DNA of 45,351 nucleotides, taken from NCBI GenBank assembly GCA_027487685.1, contig JAIYDC010000072.1, forward strand, positions 1-45,351, given 5' to 3'. The notes under the pieces are model-generated. The model was not told the origin of the DNA, did no database searches, and was given only the letters and a program-made list of their open reading frames with translations. This stretch comes from Pseudomonadota bacterium. Its GTDB lineage: Bacteria > Bdellovibrionota > Bacteriovoracia > Bacteriovoracales > Bacteriovoracaceae. The position numbers and the translations under genes were made by a program. Of the stretch, positions 33,632 through 44,989 are shown piece by piece; position 1 is the first letter of the stretch; every line of letters begins with the position of its first letter.

Positions 33632-34573
33632 ATGGTGTATAGAGTTCCCATGACAATCTACACGGGATACCTCGCGATTCATAAGTTTGAAGCAGAGCTT
33701 GAGCGGGAGTTCGAGGTCCGAGGCCTTACCGTCGCTCACAAGCGAGACCGCCTTTACCTCGTCGAAGGGACCGCACCCGCTCTCATCTGGGCCCAGGTCA
33801 CGGCCTTTAACCTTGAAACAATCAAAATCACCTCCATCAATGACGGCGCTAAAAAGCTTAAGGACCGAGGCCGCAACTGGGGCCTTTATACGGTTACAAA
33901 TCACCGTCGCGCTGAGCTCATTCAGGAGATCCTGCCAAAAATTCGGCCCCGGCCCCTTCCCTTTCGGCACCCGCTCCCATCAGCTCCGATGGGTTTTTGG
34001 ACCCTGTGGCAAGAGGATGAGCTCCTAGCGACTCAGGAAACCTCCTCTCCTTTTGCACTCGGGGCGATGGAGTTTATGGAAGATAAGGTTATGCCACCCT
34101 CCCGCGCCTACCTGAAACTCTGGGAGTTCTTTACGGTGTATGCACCCGAGGCCATCACCGGAGGAACCGCCATCGATGTGGGTTCTTGTCCAGGTGGTTG
34201 GACCTGGGTCCTTCGCATGCTCGACTTCGAACGGGTGTACTCCGTAGACAAGGCCCCTATCGAGAAGCGGATCATGGACCTGGGAAAGATTGAGTTCCGG
34301 CAAGAAAGTGCGTTTGGCCTGGATCCCGCCACCTTGGGGCCCATCGACTGGTTCTGCTCTGACATCATCTGTTACCCGGAGCGCCTTTTGAATCTTGTAA
34401 ACCGATTCCGCGCGGCCGGCACGGTAAAAAACTTTGTCTGCACCATCAAGTACCAGGCCGAAACGGATTGGGAGCAAACGTTGAAATTTCTCGAGATCCC
34501 AGGGTCGCGCATCGTGCACCTCCACCACAATAAGCACGAAGTAACCTGGTTCCTCAAAGGGGCGAACTCATGA
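33632..34573 (+). CDS. RlmM-like rRNA 2'-O-methyltransferase (FtsJ fold)
   Basis: The 313-residue protein follows the RlmM layout: an N-terminal THUMP-like region with GYLAIHKFEAELEREF, then an FtsJ-type domain with IDVGSCPGGWTWVL as the SAM loop. A K-D-K-E tetrad is suggested by KLWEF, CSDIIC, TIKYQ and KHEVTW. RlmM methylates C2498 of 23S rRNA. GAGGG lies just before the ATG at 33632, though an ATG at 33650 would give the more usual N terminus. Its stop overlaps the next methyltransferase gene by 4 bp. Confidence 0.82.
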   Translation: MVYRVPMTIYTGYLAIHKFEAELEREFEVRGLTVAHKRDRLYLVEGTAPALIWAQVTAFNLETIKITSINDGAKKLKDRGRNWGLYTVTNHRRAELIQEILPKIRPRPLPFRHPLPSAPMGFWTLWQEDELLATQETSSPFALGAMEFMEDKVMPPSRAYLKLWEFFTVYAPEAITGGTAIDVGSCPGGWTWVLRMLDFERVYSVDKAPIEKRIMDLGKIEFRQESAFGLDPATLGPIDWFCSDIICYPERLLNLVNRFRAAGTVKNFVCTIKYQAETDWEQTLKFLEIPGSRIVHLHHNKHEVTWFLKGANS

Positions 34574-35772
34574 AGTATTTTTCCTCGGAGCGTCCGCTGC
34601 GGCCCCGTCTGACCCGTGATATCACCAAGCACCTCAAACGGGGAAACCCTTGGGTCTTTGCCGACGCCATGGAAAAAATCAAGGCCCCTGAGGGCCAGTA
34701 TGGAATTCTCTTGGGGCCCAGAAGTGATGTTGTGGCCCACGGCTTCACCTCTTCCTCCGTCAACCTCGCCTTCCGGGTTCTTACTGTTGGCGATCGTCGC
34801 TTCACGGACGGTGAGGTCGAGCGCCGAATACTGCGTGCAGCTCGCAACAAGCGTCACCTCCTGACGATCGATAATAAGTGCTTCCGCCTACTCAATGGTG
34901 AGGGTGATGAACTTCCTGGAGTCGTTGCGGACTACTATGACGGAGTCGTGGTGCTCAAACTCGACGGAGCAGCTTCCGAGGCCTTCTGGAACAAGGAGGC
35001 ACTGGCGCAATTTATTATGGAGGAACTGAATCTCCCTATTCGCTGCATGTATTTTAAAAGGAAAAACAGCGAAGAGGAGAAAGGGTTAATCCTCTGCGGC
35101 GAGTGCGAGAATCTGACAGATCTTGAGTTCCTCGAGCATGGAGTCAAGTTTCGGACCAATATCATCGACGCTGCCAAGACCGGTTTTTTCCTGGACCAGC
35201 GAGAGAACCGAAACTTTATCCGCTCTGTGGCCAAGGACAAAACCCTTCTGAACCTCTTTGGTTACACGGGTGGATTTTCGGTGTACGCGGGGCTAGGAGG
35301 CGCCCTCATGGTGACCACCGTCGACATCGCACCCAACGCCATCAAGGGAGCGACTAGGAACTGGCAAATCAATCACCTGGCCCCTGAGCTTCACGACGCC
35401 ATTTGCGAAGATGCTTTCGAGTTCGTGGCCCAGGCGCAGAAAGAAAAGCGCCTCTGGGATATTGTGATCACCGACCCACCAAGCTTCGCGCCGAACCAAA
35501 AAGCGGTGGCAGCGGCACGGGAGGCCTACATCAAAGTCTTTACTGACTCACTCCGTTTGGTGAAAGACGAGGGCTTCTTCGCAGCATCCAGCTGCTCAGG
35601 CCATATCGGCTTCGAAGAGTTCCTGGAGGTCGTGCAGGAGGCGCTCTCAAAAGCTAGACGCCGTGGAAAAGTCCTTTTAGTGAAGGGCCAGCCGGAAGAT
35701 CACTCCTATCCCCTGGCACTCCCGGAGATGAGGTACCTGAAGTTTGTCTATCTGCAGGTCTTCAATGATTAG
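34570..35772 (+). CDS. RlmI-like 23S rRNA m5C methyltransferase with PUA domain
   Basis: This 400-residue protein has a PUA domain (about 1-75, KHLKRGNPWVFADAMEKI), an EEHD-like middle region and the methyltransferase core. KTGFFLDQRENR (about 203-214) is the RlmI group signature, NLFGYTGGFSVYA is motif I, TVDIAPNAI is motif II and ITDPPSFA is the catalytic motif, followed by ASSCSGHI with the catalytic Cys. RlmI makes m5C1962 in E. coli 23S rRNA. It is coupled to the RlmM-like gene by ATGA, and its stop overlaps the convergent gene's stop. Confidence 0.88.
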   Translation: MKYFSSERPLRPRLTRDITKHLKRGNPWVFADAMEKIKAPEGQYGILLGPRSDVVAHGFTSSSVNLAFRVLTVGDRRFTDGEVERRILRAARNKRHLLTIDNKCFRLLNGEGDELPGVVADYYDGVVVLKLDGAASEAFWNKEALAQFIMEELNLPIRCMYFKRKNSEEEKGLILCGECENLTDLEFLEHGVKFRTNIIDAAKTGFFLDQRENRNFIRSVAKDKTLLNLFGYTGGFSVYAGLGGALMVTTVDIAPNAIKGATRNWQINHLAPELHDAICEDAFEFVAQAQKEKRLWDIVITDPPSFAPNQKAVAAAREAYIKVFTDSLRLVKDEGFFAASSCSGHIGFEEFLEVVQEALSKARRRGKVLLVKGQPEDHSYPLALPEMRYLKFVYLQVFND

Positions 35773-36305
35773 CCGCCTGATGTCCGTGCCATCAGCTCTT
35801 TGACAAAGGTCTTGCTCCGAAGCTCAAGCCAGAGAACCTGCATCATCACTCCAGCACAGATCCAGACCAAACTGTAGCTCAGGGTCTCCCGCGGCAGGCC
35901 CGCGGCCAAGTTGGTCAGCATGAGTCCACCCCACAGGAGAGCTGGCATGAAGATCAAAGAATACTTAAAGCGCCGCCAGATCCACCACAGCTCTTCTCCT
36001 TTCATGCCGATGAAGGCCACGACGAGACCACTCGAAAGAAACAGCGAAGCACAGAATGCCGCACAGGCCACTTCTCCGAGAGCACGGAAGATGTGGGCGA
36101 TACCATGACCCTCCAGGAGTCCCAGTCCAAACTGCGGGCAAAACCCAAGCGAGAAGAGGGCCCCAAGAAGTTCGAAGACGATAAACTTAGCGACGATCCC
36201 CCGGGCCCGAAAAGAGAGAAGGATGTCGGCCTTCGTCTGCGCTTTTAGGAATGCGGGTGGTGCTTCTTGACCAACTAAAAACTCTAAGATTTCTTTATTC
36301 TTCAT
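35769..36305 (-). CDS. membrane protein, probable anti-sigma factor
   Basis: The 178-residue protein has a short cytoplasmic N terminus (about 1-35) and four hydrophobic spans (about 38-58, 76-98, 113-133 and 140-160). Its start overlaps the ECF sigma gene by 11 bp, the standard sigma/anti-sigma arrangement. The N-terminal part is too short for a zinc anti-sigma domain and has no HxxxCxxC. The role is inferred from gene order alone; it could be an unrelated membrane protein co-expressed with the sigma factor. Confidence 0.6.
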   Translation of the reverse strand: MKNKEILEFLVGQEAPPAFLKAQTKADILLSFRARGIVAKFIVFELLGALFSLGFCPQFGLGLLEGHGIAHIFRALGEVACAAFCASLFLSSGLVVAFIGMKGEELWWIWRRFKYSLIFMPALLWGGLMLTNLAAGLPRETLSYSLVWICAGVMMQVLWLELRSKTFVKELMARTSGG

Positions 36306-36804
36306 GGTGACCTCTTAGACTTCGAACGGCCCTTGATAAACGCTGGCGAAGGTTCGTTTGTGACAGACCCGTTTGGGCCTCCAATTCCGCATACCCGACG
36401 CCTTCCAGAAAGTAGTGCCGCACCAGTGCCTGGGTCTCCGGGGGAAGCTTCGCCAGGAGGGCCTCCGTCGCCTCAGGTGCAAGATCGGGTGGGTTAGTGT
36501 AAAACTCTGTGATAATCTCCGTCTGGTAATGGGACACGTCCCGACGGGCCATGGCACGGTACTCATCAATCAAAAGGTTCTTCATAAGTACGAAGAACCA
36601 CGGAGCGAAGGGTCGGTCTTTGTAGAGACCCCGTTTCTCATGCAACTGGCGCCAGACCTTTTGGAACTGATCATCTACGTCGCTCGCGCGGATGCGCCGG
36701 CGCAGGAAGGCGTAAACCATGGGAGCGTATTTTTCATACAGCACACCAAAGGCGTCTTCGCTTCCTTGAGCATACTCCCGCATCCACTCTTCATCGCTTT
36801 TCAT
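36295..36804 (-). CDS. ECF RNA polymerase sigma factor
   Basis: This 169-residue protein has region 2 (about 15-85, DAFGVLYEKYAPMVYAF then DVDDQFQKVWRQL, with WFFVLMKNLLIDEYR) and region 4 (about 115-165, LPPETQALVRHYFLEG then the helix-turn-helix YAELEAQTGLSQTNLRQRLSRA). Length and layout are those of an ECF sigma factor. It lies 12 bp downstream of the MerT-like gene and overlaps a membrane protein that is probably its regulator. It may drive this same metal-related operon. Confidence 0.9.
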   Translation of the reverse strand: MKSDEEWMREYAQGSEDAFGVLYEKYAPMVYAFLRRRIRASDVDDQFQKVWRQLHEKRGLYKDRPFAPWFFVLMKNLLIDEYRAMARRDVSHYQTEIITEFYTNPPDLAPEATEALLAKLPPETQALVRHYFLEGVGYAELEAQTGLSQTNLRQRLSRAVRSLRGHHEE

Positions 36805-36816
36805 CTCTGGATCATC

Positions 36817-37191
36817 TCACAGGAGTTCGGGAAGGATAAAGGCATAAAATGCGCCCACCAAGTTGATCAAAAAAGTCACTATCAGGATGGGCGTGGCCCA
36901 TGAACGCGCGGACTCGCAAGCGTCTTTCTTATCCATAGGGCAAGTTTTGGAATCAGAGAAGCGCTGGCCCGCGAATGCCAATGCCAGCATAAAAAACGAA
37001 ACTCCGAAAACGATCCCCTTATGCTCTGAAGGCCAGATCAGCTGAGGAAAATAACCTAAAAATCCAGCGAGTCCTGCGCCGAATCCCAGCAGCACCAGGG
37101 TCGAGGGGATAGCGCAACAGAGGAGTGTGCCGAAGGAGGTGAAAAGAGATGCGTAAGCGATCGCCCTACTTTCTTTCAATGCTTGCCACAT
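36817..37191 (-). CDS. MerT-like metal transport membrane protein
   Basis: The 124-residue protein has three membrane helices (about 14-45, 58-76 and 100-120). A vicinal C25-C26 pair sits in the first helix, and C84 and C92 in the loop before the last, the same arrangement as in the mercuric transporter MerT. The frame is open from 37365, but AGGAT precedes the ATG at 37191 and gives the MerT-like length. It overlaps the upstream HMA-protein gene by 26 bp. The metal and direction of transport are unknown; no mercuric reductase gene is near. Confidence 0.7.
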   Translation of the reverse strand: MWQALKESRAIAYASLFTSFGTLLCCAIPSTLVLLGFGAGLAGFLGYFPQLIWPSEHKGIVFGVSFFMLALAFAGQRFSDSKTCPMDKKDACESARSWATPILIVTFLINLVGAFYAFILPELL

Positions 37192-37441
37192 TATATCCTG
37201 CCTCTTGTATGAGTTTCTTAATCGTCTCGTCAGAGAGGTCCTTCCCTTCATGGGTTTGAATGGTGACAACCTTCTCGTCCATGTTGACCCGAAGTTCCCG
37301 GATGCTGGTCTCGGGAGCAAACTTTTTCTTGATCCCTTGAGCGCACATGGAGCAGACCATGCCACTGACCTTCACCGAAATATCGGCGGCAAGAGCATTC
37401 AAAGAGAAACCTAAAAGGATCAAAGATAACATTTTCTTCAT
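37166..37441 (-). CDS. periplasmic heavy-metal-associated (MerP-like) protein
   Basis: This 91-residue protein has a signal peptide (1-19, ALAA) and one HMA domain with SGMVCSMCAQGIKK, metal ligands C30 and C33. This is the MerP layout: a periplasmic carrier that hands a soft metal ion (Hg, Cu or similar) to the partner transporter. It overlaps the MerT-like gene, which supports a transport pair. The N-terminal extension and motif match is strong; the metal is inferred only broadly. Confidence 0.85.
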   Translation of the reverse strand: MKKMLSLILLGFSLNALAADISVKVSGMVCSMCAQGIKKKFAPETSIRELRVNMDEKVVTIQTHEGKDLSDETIKKLIQEAGYNVASIERK

Positions 37442-37455
37442 AAACTGTCCTCCGA

Positions 37456-38091
37456 CTAGTAGTGAACCATCAGGTTAAGCATCCACTCTCCGCGGGTGCT
37501 TGAGCCCAGTTCCCATAAGACGTTGTGATAAAAAAATCGAACCAGGGGTGTAAGAGTGACCCTGTCTTGGACATCGCCAATCACCATTCCTTGGAGCATG
37601 AACCAAGTCTGAAGCTCCTCGAAGGGGGCCTTCCTGGGAGAAAAACCTATGCGCCCCTGAGCAATGTAGGAGTTTTGAAACTGGTAATACTTGGCAGCGG
37701 TATAGAGGGAGCGGGTTTCCCAATCCACGTCGGCCCCCACAAGACCGGATGCGCGGGTGCGCTTGTCTCCACCAAATTCCCGGTCCTCGACTCCAAGACC
37801 GCCGTGAAGATACAAATTCGCCTGAGAGTCAGTGCCGTTGCGCCGCCAAAGGAGCTGATTGAGTTTCACTAGACCCAACTCGTTATTGGCACCATCCCGG
37901 GAGAAGCGCCAATGATCCACGCCGAGTGCTAACCGCTGGGTAAAGGAGTACATGACATAATTATTTGAGTACTCCGGCATATTGGAAGAGTTCAGCGCCC
38001 AGCCACCCTGGTAAATCACGGGATGGGCCCAGGTGAGAGCGCTGTTAAAGATCACAAAAAACAACAGTAAAGATCGTTTCATATCCATCAT
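37456..38091 (-). CDS. outer-membrane barrel protein of the metal cluster
   Basis: The 211-residue protein has a signal peptide (about 1-22, TWAHP). The mature chain is rich in alternating aromatic residues (YVMYSFTQRLALGVDHWRF, WMLNLMVHY) and ends in Tyr, as outer-membrane barrels do. No family is recognised. It is the first gene of a five-gene minus-strand run, 14 bp before the MerP-like gene, so a role in metal passage across the outer membrane is plausible but unproven. Confidence 0.65.
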   Translation of the reverse strand: MMDMKRSLLLFFVIFNSALTWAHPVIYQGGWALNSSNMPEYSNNYVMYSFTQRLALGVDHWRFSRDGANNELGLVKLNQLLWRRNGTDSQANLYLHGGLGVEDREFGGDKRTRASGLVGADVDWETRSLYTAAKYYQFQNSYIAQGRIGFSPRKAPFEELQTWFMLQGMVIGDVQDRVTLTPLVRFFYHNVLWELGSSTRGEWMLNLMVHY

Positions 38092-38120
38092 AACGATGGC
38101 CGAGGGCCGGCCGTGACAAG

Positions 38121-38810
38121 CTAATGAAGATTTTTGGTAATCTTTCGGAAGTTCGCCCAGATCTGGGATTTTAAAAGATCCACGTCCATGTCGAGGTGAT
38201 GGGCCGCACGCAGGTAGATGTCATGGATATCGAGGTGCTTTTGTTCATCCGTCTCAAGGAAGAGGTTTGAGAGCGGCACCAGGGGAAGAAGTTCCCGGAT
38301 CTGAGGCGAATTGTCGATCGAGAGACCAAACGAAAAATAGGTCTCGGGATGAAGCCGCAAGAGGTCCCGCATAAGCGCTTCGTTGCCGCGGAAGTCGTGG
38401 AAGATCCAAGGAGACTTAGGTTTTTTCTCTTTTAGAATCTGAAGGAAATCAGATCCCGCACGCACACTGTGAATGACCAGTGGTAAGGCATAGCGCTCTG
38501 AAAGATCGAGGTGCCAATGGAACAAACTTAACTGCATATCGAGGAATTCAGGGTAGGCACGGTCGATACCTGTCTCTCCAATCCCCCATAGCCTCTGCTC
38601 ATGTGTGAGATTTTCGATGTGGCGTTTAAACGCATCAATTTCGTCCGTCGTATAATCCTCAACCCACCAGGGGTGAATGCCGGCGGAGGTATAGGTCTTT
38701 GGTGTCCCTTCTACCAAGAGCTCGTCAGTGGAAAGGCAGGCAACACTGACCGACTCTGGGTGCGTGTCACGCCTGTGGGTATGAATATCCAGGTAGTTTA
38801 AAGGGTCCAC
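38121..38810 (-). CDS. TatD-family metal-dependent hydrolase
   Basis: The 229-residue protein has the amidohydrolase TIM-barrel motifs of TatD: DIHTHR near the start, GETGID, LVIHSVRA, IFHDFRG and ETDEQK. TatD enzymes are Mg-dependent 3'-5' nucleases. At 229 residues it is shorter than E. coli TatD (260), like the small TatD group. It lies 4 bp after the preceding small secreted-protein gene and 29 bp before the metal-cluster outer-membrane gene. Confidence 0.85.
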   Translation of the reverse strand: MDPLNYLDIHTHRRDTHPESVSVACLSTDELLVEGTPKTYTSAGIHPWWVEDYTTDEIDAFKRHIENLTHEQRLWGIGETGIDRAYPEFLDMQLSLFHWHLDLSERYALPLVIHSVRAGSDFLQILKEKKPKSPWIFHDFRGNEALMRDLLRLHPETYFSFGLSIDNSPQIRELLPLVPLSNLFLETDEQKHLDIHDIYLRAAHHLDMDVDLLKSQIWANFRKITKNLH

Positions 38811-41984: not shown

Positions 41985-42338
41985 ATGGCCAAACGAGTAG
42001 CTCAAGGAAACCAGGGGCAGAAGAAAACCAGGCGTGCACTAGAGATGGCACCGAACGATGCTGGCATTCAGAGTAATCCTCTGAATTCTAAGCTCGCAGG
42101 TCTCGCGGGTCTCGGAAGTTTCGTCCAAGGAGCAGGTTATAAGAAGATTGCCCGGGCAGTTTCGAGCAACCCCTGGGCCCTCTCTCTGGCCGGAGGCATC
42201 GGCGCCTACTTCATCGGACGTTTTTTGTACCGCTACTACGAGAATCATCCTGAAATCTCGGATTTTATCCAGGAAAACTTTGAGACAGTCGAGTCAAAAC
42301 TGCGTGAGATCCGGGGTACCGACTCGGTCGCACACTAA
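41985..42338 (+). CDS. tandem paralogue 1: small single-span membrane protein
   Basis: The 117-residue protein has a basic, probably disordered N terminus, one membrane helix (about 62-81) and a C-terminal amphipathic tail. The tail contains PEISDF (89-94) and ENFETVESKLREIR. The protein encoded next (42363-42683) has the same order of parts with PEISDFLRENMDNLEAKL, so they are tandem duplicates. RBS GGAGG precedes the ATG. I do not recognise the family. Confidence 0.7.
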   Translation: MAKRVAQGNQGQKKTRRALEMAPNDAGIQSNPLNSKLAGLAGLGSFVQGAGYKKIARAVSSNPWALSLAGGIGAYFIGRFLYRYYENHPEISDFIQENFETVESKLREIRGTDSVAH

Positions 42339-42362
42339 CATGATGAAAATGGAGAAACAAAA

Positions 42363-42683
42363 ATGGTAAAAAAAACACTTCCGAAAAAAGACGGTCGCCG
42401 TATAAGGACCAATCGTACCCGTGGAAGCGCTCAGTCCATGGATGCCAGGAATGACAGCTTTCAGGAGGATCGGGATTATAAAGAAATCCTGAAAGACTTC
42501 ATCTCGCGCCCGGCGGTGAAATACGTGGCCGGCGGAGTCGCTGCGGCGATACTTGCGAGGCTTGCCAACAATATGGCAGGAAAATATCCTGAGATCTCGG
42601 ATTTCCTCCGGGAGAATATGGACAACCTTGAGGCCAAGTTAGGAGAGTTTCGAGACACTCTTCAAAACACCGCACAGCACTAG
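42363..42683 (+). CDS. tandem paralogue 2: small single-span membrane protein
   Basis: This 106-residue paralogue of the preceding gene has a basic N terminus, an Ala/Gly-rich membrane helix (about 51-68, AGGVAAAILARL) and the shared tail PEISDF (76-81) with ENMDNLEAKLGEFRDT. The two genes are 24 bp apart and surely co-transcribed. A terminator follows. Function is unknown; the short tail helix could mediate dimerisation or contact another envelope protein. Confidence 0.7.
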   Translation: MVKKTLPKKDGRRIRTNRTRGSAQSMDARNDSFQEDRDYKEILKDFISRPAVKYVAGGVAAAILARLANNMAGKYPEISDFLRENMDNLEAKLGEFRDTLQNTAQH

Positions 42684-42706
42684 TCTTTAACATGGTATTC
42701 ATCAAT

Positions 42707-42745
42707 GAAGGGGCCGCATTGTCGGTCCCTTCTCTTTCTTATTCC
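42707..42745 (+). terminator. rho-independent terminator after the tandem paralogues
   Basis: GAAGGGGCCG (42707-42716) pairs with CGGTCCCTTC (42723-42732), with one G-T pair, and is followed by TCTTTCTTATT. It separates the paralogue pair from the copA promoter. Confidence 0.75.
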
Positions 42746-42769
42746 TCATTGACCTTACCCAAATAAACT

Positions 42770-42800
42770 TTGACCTTCCCTAAAGGGAAGGGTTTATTAT
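42770..42800 (+). promoter_or_regulatory. CueR/MerR-type promoter-operator of copA
   Basis: A -35 box TTGACC (42770-42775) and a -10 box TATTAT (42795-42800) are 19 bp apart, the overlong spacer that MerR-family activators untwist. Centred in it is the inverted repeat CCTTCCC-TAAA-GGGAAGG (42774-42791), close to the CueR operators of E. coli copA. Copper-induced activation of copA is therefore expected. No cueR gene is in the window. Confidence 0.85.
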
Positions 42801-42823
42801 CTTGAAGACTATAAGGAAGAGCG

Positions 42824-44989
42824 ATGAAAAAAGAGATCATGCTGAACATCAAGGGGATGACATGTGCCTCTTGCGTCGGTCGGGTGGAACGGGTGCTCAA
42901 AAAAGACCCGGGAGTTCTTTCCGCAGCAGTAAAGCTGGCCACCGAGAAGGCATCGATAATTTTTGAAGACACGAAGACCGACCCATCAAAACTTATCGAC
43001 GACGTCCGACGGGCAGGCTACGAGGCAAGTTCACTCCCAACCACTGAGGAAGATCGGTTAACTGAACTCAAACATGAGGGACGATCCGTTATCGTCGCGG
43101 CAACACTGTCGCTTCCCTTAGTCCTACCGATGCTCTTTGAACCCTTCGGCGTTCATCTGATGCTTCCTCCAATTCTCCAACTGGCCCTGGCGACACCAGT
43201 TCAGCTCCTCATAGGTGCAAGATTCTACACCTCAGCCTGGAGTGCGCTCAAGGCCCGCTCTGGGAACATGGAACTATTGGTGGCAATCGGCACCAGCGCC
43301 GCCTATGGTCTCTCCCTCTACCATCTCCTTGCAAAGTCCAACCTACACCTCTACTTCGAGAGTTCGGCCGTTATCATAACCCTTGTTCTGCTAGGAAAAT
43401 ATCTTGAGAAGAAGGCCAAGGCCCAGACCACTTCGGCGATCAGGGCCCTTCAAGATCTAAGACCTGAAACCGCCAGAGTCTTGCGGGAGGGACAGGAAGT
43501 AGAACTGCCACTAGCAGCGGTCGTGGCCGGAGACCTGGTCATCATCCGCCCCGGCGAACGTCTGCCCGTGGACGGAATCATCATGGAAGGGTCAACACAG
43601 GTTGATGAGGCCCTCATGACCGGAGAAAATCTTCCGATCTTCAAAAAAGTCGGCGACACTGTCGTCGGCGGTTCCATCAACGGAGATGGTGCCGTCACTC
43701 TCCGTGTAACGGCCATCGGCAATGAAACCGTGTTGGCGCGGATCATCCGCTTGGTGGAAGACGCTCAGGCCAAGAAGCCACCCATCCAAAGGCTGGTCGA
43801 TAAAGTGGCTTCTTGGTTCGTTCCTGTTGTTGTCGGAATATCCGCAGCAACTGTATTGGGAGTAGGCCTCGTAACGGGTGATTGGGAAGCGGGGGTCTTA
43901 AACGCCGTGAGTGTCCTAGTCATCGCTTGCCCCTGCGCCCTGGGGCTAGCAACCCCCACATCCATCATGGTGGGAACGGGAATGGCAGCCAAGGCGGGAA
44001 TCTTGATCAAAGACGCAGAAGCGCTCGAAATCGCCCACGGCCTCACCGTCGTGGCCTTCGATAAAACCGGTACCCTCACTCTCGGTAGACCCACCGTCAC
44101 GACTCTGAGTTCACTGTCCTCATCAAGCGAGGAAGACATCCTAAGCCTCGCCGCGGGCGTGCAACAGGGTTCAGAACATCCCCTTGCCCACGCTATCCTG
44201 CGAGCAGCGAAAGAGAGGAAGCTACCCATACCCTTGGTTAGCGCTAACCGCGCGATCCCTGGAAAAGGAATGGAAGGAGAGATTCTGGGAAGGAAATACT
44301 TCTTGGGATCTCTTGATGCCATCGAGGAGCTAGGTCTTCTGACACAGAAGATTCGAGAGCGGGTTGAAGAACTTGCGGGTAACGAAGAAACCGTTTCCTG
44401 TCTCGCCGACCGTTCGGAAGCGATAGTCCTAGGTATAGTCGCCTTCAGGGATATGGTTAGACCTGAAGCGAAGCGCACTATCAATGAGCTTCATGCCCTC
44501 GGAATAAAGACCGTCATGATCAGCGGGGATAACTTAGGCAGCGCTCAAAAAGTCGCTCATGAACTGGGAATCGGTGAAGTCCGGGCCCAGGTTCTTCCCG
44601 AACAGAAGGCGCTATTCGTGAGTGAGCTTCGCACTCGTGGCGAAGTGGTGGCAATGGTGGGTGACGGTGTTAACGATGCGCCGGCATTGGCCGCAGCGGA
44701 TGTGGGAATTGCTATGAGCACGGGAACGGACGTCGCCATGCACACCGCAGGGATCACCCTTATGCGGGGGAATCCGCTCCTCATCTCGGACGCCATCGAC
44801 ATCTCCCGTCGGACCTACGCCAAGATCCGTCAGAACCTTTTCTGGGCCTTTTTTTACAACATCATCGGAATTCCGCTGGCAGCGCTTGGATACCTAAGCC
44901 CGGTTATCGCCGGAGGAGCGATGGCCTTAAGCTCCGTTAGCGTCGTCACTAACGCTCTTCTCTTAAAGCGCTGGAAGCGTCAGAGCTAG
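42824..44989 (+). CDS. copA: copper-exporting P1B-type ATPase
   Basis: The 721-residue pump has one N-terminal HMA domain (GMTCASC, C14 and C17), membrane helices from about 90 on, the transport-site motif C369-P-C371 in helix 6, the phosphorylation motif DKTGTLT with D413, and the hinge GDGVNDAPALAAADVG. Length and the CPC motif indicate Cu(I) export. The single HMA domain and CueR-type promoter agree. AAGGAAGAG precedes the ATG. Confidence 0.93.
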   Translation: MKKEIMLNIKGMTCASCVGRVERVLKKDPGVLSAAVKLATEKASIIFEDTKTDPSKLIDDVRRAGYEASSLPTTEEDRLTELKHEGRSVIVAATLSLPLVLPMLFEPFGVHLMLPPILQLALATPVQLLIGARFYTSAWSALKARSGNMELLVAIGTSAAYGLSLYHLLAKSNLHLYFESSAVIITLVLLGKYLEKKAKAQTTSAIRALQDLRPETARVLREGQEVELPLAAVVAGDLVIIRPGERLPVDGIIMEGSTQVDEALMTGENLPIFKKVGDTVVGGSINGDGAVTLRVTAIGNETVLARIIRLVEDAQAKKPPIQRLVDKVASWFVPVVVGISAATVLGVGLVTGDWEAGVLNAVSVLVIACPCALGLATPTSIMVGTGMAAKAGILIKDAEALEIAHGLTVVAFDKTGTLTLGRPTVTTLSSLSSSSEEDILSLAAGVQQGSEHPLAHAILRAAKERKLPIPLVSANRAIPGKGMEGEILGRKYFLGSLDAIEELGLLTQKIRERVEELAGNEETVSCLADRSEAIVLGIVAFRDMVRPEAKRTINELHALGIKTVMISGDNLGSAQKVAHELGIGEVRAQVLPEQKALFVSELRTRGEVVAMVGDGVNDAPALAAADVGIAMSTGTDVAMHTAGITLMRGNPLLISDAIDISRRTYAKIRQNLFWAFFYNIIGIPLAALGYLSPVIAGGAMALSSVSVVTNALLLKRWKRQS

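Follow-up and report, generated by a model that had tools for sequence, protein, structure and literature searches.

A probable copper-handling operon with an outer-membrane barrel, a MerT-like protein and its own ECF sigma factor in a Bacteriovoracaceae-type genome

We analyzed a 45,351-nt stretch of DNA (contig JAIYDC010000072.1 of GCA_027487685.1; hereafter the window, meaning the whole stretch) from a 3.8 Mb assembly whose closest named relatives are Bacteriovoracaceae-type metagenome-assembled genomes (MAGs). Five genes on its minus strand, spanning 35769-38091, encode in operon order an outer-membrane protein (OMP), an HMA protein, a MerT-like three-helix inner-membrane protein, an extracytoplasmic function (ECF) sigma factor, and a four-helix membrane protein that we call the partner (Table 1). 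An earlier note, made from the sequence alone, had described these genes, with overlaps or short gaps, as a MerP/MerT-like metal operon carrying an ECF sigma factor and anti-sigma factor. Open reading frames (ORFs), profile matches, and the gene order of relatives confirmed all five genes, and the outer-membrane barrel, the periplasmic HMA protein, and the three-helix transporter with its CC and C...C signatures were likewise borne out. The OMP and HMA genes are 14 nt apart, the HMA and MerT-like genes overlap by 26 nt, 12 nt separate the MerT-like and ECF genes, and the ECF and partner genes overlap by 11 nt. The listed ORF of the MerT-like gene, which runs to 37365, is over-extended; an ATG at 37191, lying within the end of the HMA gene (26 nt shared), agrees with relatives. 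On balance, we read the locus as probably an operon that handles copper and is controlled by its own ECF sigma factor, in which the OMP, HMA, and MerT-like proteins would relay copper inward.

Table 1. Genes and promoter-like sites of the operon and its flanks, in window coordinates.
Feature	Position	Strand	Basis and remarks
OMP gene	37456-38091, likely start 38082	-	ORF list; predicted 12-strand barrel
HMA gene	37166-37441	-	PF00403, 8.1e-9; CSMC motif; MerP/CopZ-like; signal peptide-like N-terminus
MerT-like gene	36817-37191	-	Three hydrophobic segments; C25C26, C84/C92; profile-profile match to MerT
ECF sigma gene	36295-36804	-	PF04542/PF08281 and TIGR02937; Sigma70_r2 and r4_2 above cut-off
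Four-helix membrane protein gene, probable anti-sigma	35769-36305	-	Four hydrophobic segments; adjoins ECF genes
ECF-type promoter, OMP gene	38091-38118	-	TGTCACG-N16-CGTTA; pattern match; -10 overlaps first ATG
Intragenic promoter-like site	36338-36365	-	TGTCACA-N16-CGTTT in sigma region 4.2 codons; codon-level conservation
tatD	38121-38810	-	Co-directional with operon; 29 bp upstream of OMP gene; gap houses promoter
rRNA-methyltransferase-like gene	34570-35772	+	Convergent; other flank of the five genes

The window transporter had no match to the Pfam MerT model (PF02411) at E 0.1, and the same model matched five of 21 relatives weakly (best 0.0018). A single profile-profile comparison with true MerT sequences of the same phylum, made with hhalign, returned a probability of 96.6 and E 5e-10, with an alignment that spans the transporter length at 18% identity over 113 columns and keeps the cysteines in register. 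The CC pair at residues 25-26 and the two loop cysteines, C84 and C92, are present in 21/21 aligned transporter sequences, and by these profile comparisons the protein is a remote MerT homologue with all four MerT cysteines. Together with the HMA protein it recalls MerT/MerP (PF02411, TIGR02052), in which a periplasmic HMA carrier is likewise paired with a three-helix inner-membrane protein whose CC pair sits in helix 1 and whose loop bears two cysteines. Unlike that system, the window operon lacks a PF02411 match and MerA, has an ECF-type promoter in place of mer-type control, and adds a dedicated outer-membrane barrel and a copper neighborhood.

No Pfam or NCBIfam family matched the OMP, and sequence searches of solved structures with the OMP, the transporter, and the partner gave no credible match. 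Structure prediction yielded a closed 12-stranded barrel (pLDDT 89.5). Among solved folds, it comes closest to autotransporter barrels and KdgM-type porins; these score above PcoB (7pge, an entry titled copper transporter), which aligned with Z 11.9 and a root-mean-square deviation of 4.2 over 160 residues. The OMP may be akin to PcoB/CopB (7pge, PF05275), with a predicted barrel of comparable size and perhaps fold in a copper setting. It differs in sequence: the CopB profile matched none of the OMP alignment members, and two loci (L089 and L095) carry both CopB and the OMP. The mature protein probably begins with HPVIY, and H23, which is nearly invariant in the OMP alignment, could bind metal at this mature end. 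Because the first ATG overlaps the promoter -10, the probable translation start is 38082, which would leave the message with almost no leader; the 8-nt distance of the window recurs at L024, L026, and L063.

A transporter search of 58 related genomes returned 21 loci in 17 genomes, the window's own counted. The OMP, HMA, and transporter genes are adjacent in 19 of the 20 other loci, the twentieth lying on a short contig with HMA and transporter only, and protein identity to the window genes is 73-88% in the nearest relatives and mostly 40-65% in the others. An OMP profile search then gave the 55 named loci that underlie every count out of 55 below: the OMP-HMA-transporter order is kept on one strand in 54, the sole exception (L085) being an OMP alone. 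The hosts comprise Bacteriovoracaceae, other Bdellovibrionales, a Bradymonadales MAG, Hyphomonadaceae (Henriciella, Hyphomonas), Rhodospirillales, Caulobacterales, and other Alphaproteobacteria; a search of viral contigs found no transporter relatives. The ECF gene and partner are linked to the module in only 14/55 loci, in some Bdellovibrionota; other loci have CueR, CsoR, or a CutF-like leader gene instead. The conserved unit is three genes (OMP, HMA, MerT-like), not five. Many relatives keep the gene order described in the earlier note, but its five-gene unit is drawn too tightly. That note had regarded homologues with unlinked sigma and metal genes as evidence against such a system, and their occurrence does count against it in part; yet four unlinked Bdellovibrionota loci, including those of G004 and G009, whose sigma pair lies elsewhere, retain the sigma-type promoter.

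The tight linkage of the module to the sigma factor and partner in Bacteriovoracaceae would also suit a different role, in which the three envelope proteins serve mainly as a sensor feeding copper status to the pair rather than in transport. We consider this very improbable, since the pair occurs without the module in many genomes and Alphaproteobacterial modules have no linked sigma pair. In several same-genus genomes that lack the module, the pair occupies the same chromosomal position, with the rRNA methyltransferase gene beside it and, usually, tatD adjoining it; the module has apparently come or gone while the regulator pair stayed in place. At L164:5680-6499, where relatives hold the whole module, tatD and the sigma gene are separated by just an HMA gene, likely a relic.

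The ECF sigma factor (169 aa) ends after region 4 and contains regions 2 and 4 only (TIGR02937 above cut-off), with no cysteine and no C-terminal extension. Upstream of the OMP gene, ECF-linked loci share the consensus TGTCACA-N16-CGTTA, which is present in 14 of 15 such loci and in 4 of 41 others (all four Bdellovibrionota), against 0.36% of shuffled upstream regions. The lone ECF-linked locus without the pattern (L061) keeps both boxes at a shorter spacing, and two divergent loci (L041 and L062) carry another copy in reverse orientation that points toward the sigma gene. The consensus is likely the sigma factor's target promoter, which the earlier note had left to be found; the proposal that a metal route spanning both membranes is wired to an ECF pair is supported. 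We scanned 12 relatives for the exact pattern, with the reversed pattern as control; G029, for example, has 13 sites against 1 for the control. Directly downstream of the promoter in relatives lie the module, four multicopper oxidases, outer-membrane efflux proteins (OEP), DUF411 proteins, a Haem_bd protein, and small Cys-rich proteins that look bufferin-like by eye. Judged by gene content, these targets are a copper-type regulon.

Two known ECF systems come close to this arrangement. ECF41 sigma factors, which have a fused C-terminal regulatory domain, use the promoter TGTCACA-N16-CGTC (PMC3426412), nearly identical to the TGTCACA-N16-CGTT/C seen here, whereas the window sigma factor has no fused domain, has a membrane partner, and has metal genes as its probable targets. 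CorE of Myxococcus, a copper-linked ECF sigma factor over multicopper oxidase genes, senses copper by its own Cys-rich tail without a linked anti-sigma factor (PMC3107203); the window protein is probably copper-linked too, and in relatives its likely promoter precedes multicopper oxidase genes, but it has neither cysteines nor a Cys-rich domain and does have a linked partner.

No curated family (Pfam, NCBIfam) names the partner, and a fold search gave helical-bundle matches only (best Z 6.1), which were not informative. The residues C56 (in CPQF/YG), C81, and C85 are invariant in 15 sequences, and the positive-inside rule would place all three at the periplasmic face. The partner is likely an anti-sigma factor. 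It was found in 34/58 genomes, usually adjoining a sigma gene, and such pairs are often near CusC/B/A-like genes, a CsoR-like gene with a metal ATPase, or Cys-rich proteins. The arrangement is comparable to Caulobacter SigF-NrsF and to C. metallidurans RpoQ-RsqA (gig), in which an ECF sigma factor and a polytopic membrane partner stand beside metal or copper-induced genes (PMC10304878 for the latter), although the window partner has four helices and no detectable NrsF homology. Identification as NrsF (PF06532) was rejected, as there was no profile match and hhalign against two NrsF sequences gave a probability of 0.4. G029 carries six partner genes, most paired with a sigma gene and one apparently without (L168 = G029:C24, L032 = G029:C30), which suggests a duplicated copper-type sigma network. 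At L172:6438-6665 and L180:4334-4594, small Cys-rich exported proteins, bufferin-like by eye, adjoin a sigma-partner pair; that of L172 had no match in Pfam.

A second promoter-like site lies inside the sigma gene. The region 4.2 coding sequence contains TGTCACA-N16-CGTYT in relatives, and in the window the partner ATG follows the site by 32 nt. Among the residues conserved in 15 sigma genes from this clade, 35 are encoded by 4- or 6-fold codons, and only S148 (TCA) and R155 (CGT), which write the intragenic -35 and -10, are codon-invariant; the same class of codons differs between sequence pairs at 69% on average, the sequences being related and not independent. Since only the -35 and -10 codons stay invariant among the 35, selection at the DNA level is suggested for this site, and we read it as a possible source of extra partner transcription that would act as a brake on the response.

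Which metal is handled can be judged from the neighborhood. Around the module in relatives we found heavy-metal P-type ATPases (CopA), CueR-type MerR proteins, multicopper oxidases, CopB, a cupredoxin-CusF fusion, DUF305-like, Haem_bd, and DUF3347-like genes, and CsoR-type repressors (PF02583). The CueR-type MerR, CopB, cupredoxin/CusF, Haem_bd, and CsoR-type identities were verified with Pfam, while the P-type ATPases, DUF305, and DUF3347 of relatives were named by clustering or eye, without a curated score. At least one copper gene or copper-type regulator lies within 4 kb in 31/55 loci, and in 40/55 when ECF linkage is counted. In the window itself, the gene at 42824-44989, 4.7 kb from the operon, encodes a copper-type P-type ATPase (TIGR01511 above cut-off). 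The main argument for copper, one of guilt by association, is that the module appears under four kinds of copper-type control: the ECF/four-helix pair, CueR, CsoR, and a CutF-like leader. Given these several unrelated regulators and the copper gene neighbors, the metal is very probably copper, not mercury.

The last of these controls appears in eleven Hyphomonadaceae loci (within L071-L083), where a small exported Cys/His-rich ORF with PPPPR at its end lies 37-67 nt before the OMP gene; its only Pfam hit is a weak, below-cut-off one to DUF2946 (E 0.024). Rhodobacter CutF has a signal sequence, a Cys motif, and a proline-rich end, and a stem-loop over the ribosome site controls the next gene (PMC9973294); CruR is a related copper-responsive leader (PMC9426467). 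The Hyphomonadaceae ORF is likened to CutF on the shared export, Cys motif, and proline-rich end. In seven folded leader-OMP intergenic regions a hairpin begins at the leader's own UGA stop, before the OMP ribosome site, and at L081 the stem has an altered sequence with pairing retained; the single-sequence z-scores are modest (-2.6 to +0.4).

The MerT/MerP-like parts would also fit uptake of mercury, or of soft metals in general (Hg, Ag, Au), by a system that has lost MerA. Profile scans and the ORF list showed no MerA beside the operon, and no MerA above cut-off was detected in the window's genome or in 16 of the 17 module-bearing genomes; in the exception, G029, MerA lies near a true MerT on a contig separate from its modules. 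No MerR gene adjoins the operon at the window locus, while CueR-like MerR genes do occur at other loci. With regulators of CueR, CsoR, and CutF type nearby, we hold the mercury or soft-metal alternative to be improbable. The earlier description stands as to a MerP/MerT-like two-membrane route without MerA, but would be wrong if read as mercury.

In the copper relay that we propose, the invariant cysteines of the partner would sense periplasmic copper, or thiol stress caused by it, and the partner would then free the sigma factor, which would start transcription at TGTCACA-N16-CGTTA and so raise OMP, HMA, MerT-like protein, sigma factor, and partner together; the second site, within the sigma gene, would raise the partner and damp the response. 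The barrel would admit copper to the periplasm, the HMA protein would bind it in the Cu(I) form, and transfer inward, with the membrane potential, would run along the cysteine pairs of the MerT-like protein, after which CopA ATPases and chaperones might re-export it or load cuproenzymes with it.

The main rival to this inward relay is efflux, in which the MerT-like protein or the periplasm would load the HMA protein and this would hand copper to the OMP, making the module a small cousin of CusFCBA. Such a route would be in keeping with co-regulation with, and proximity to, the detoxification genes CopA, multicopper oxidase, and OEP, and the barrel, closed as modeled, could be a channel. However, MerT proteins are generally taken to move cations inward without any energy source built into them, passive cation export would run against the membrane potential, and the module has no RND pump or other energizer. 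PcoB, a copper barrel whose fold may be similar, is reported to aid copper entry. We regard efflux as rather unlikely and favor the inward direction.

Several points weigh against the inward copper relay. Copper import to the cytosol under copper stress looks costly. It would be less odd if cuproenzymes were loaded through CopA, as the R. capsulatus multicopper oxidase CutO depends for full activity on the cytosolic CopZ-CopA path (PMC8456105), but this loading step is drawn by analogy with CutO. The anti-sigma role of the partner is argued from its position, topology, and cysteines. Fifteen of the 55 loci have neither a copper marker nor ECF linkage within 4 kb, to which contig ends contribute. 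No multicopper oxidase was detected in the window's own genome, where the exact scan clearly placed the OMP and intragenic sites, all others being near the control count; the regulon there looks reduced and may, with so few other sites, be this operon alone.

The system is made of known kinds of parts and one unclassified barrel. It may nevertheless represent, at a little under an even chance in our estimate, an undescribed copper acquisition or relay route across both membranes that is found in at least two phyla, serves interchangeably under the four unrelated copper-type sensors, and in Bdellovibrionota is one target of a copper-responsive ECF regulon whose anti-sigma gene would be fed by a promoter within the codons for the sigma factor's DNA-binding region. 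A literature search for a MerT-like copper system found nothing, the checked mentions of 'MerT' near copper being author names, and the library searched yielded no paper on metal control in the phylum. To our knowledge, copper entry to the bacterial cytosol is poorly known, and a module that is compact and portable and brings an outer-membrane barrel of its own is a concrete candidate route. Metal control is, as far as we know, likewise little described in this phylum, which includes bacterial predators, and the ECF sigma/partner pair brings a defined candidate promoter for copper-type responses.

Two further observations concern copper genes. The multicopper oxidases at L028:12564-14912 and L031:10285-12459 carry MDHSKM repeats and, by eye, a C-terminal CopB-type barrel. 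In the window, the copper-type P-type ATPase is preceded by two small, mutually related unknown genes (the three genes span 41985-44989 on the plus strand), and a small gene related to these lies on the equivalent side of the locus in one relative (L023).

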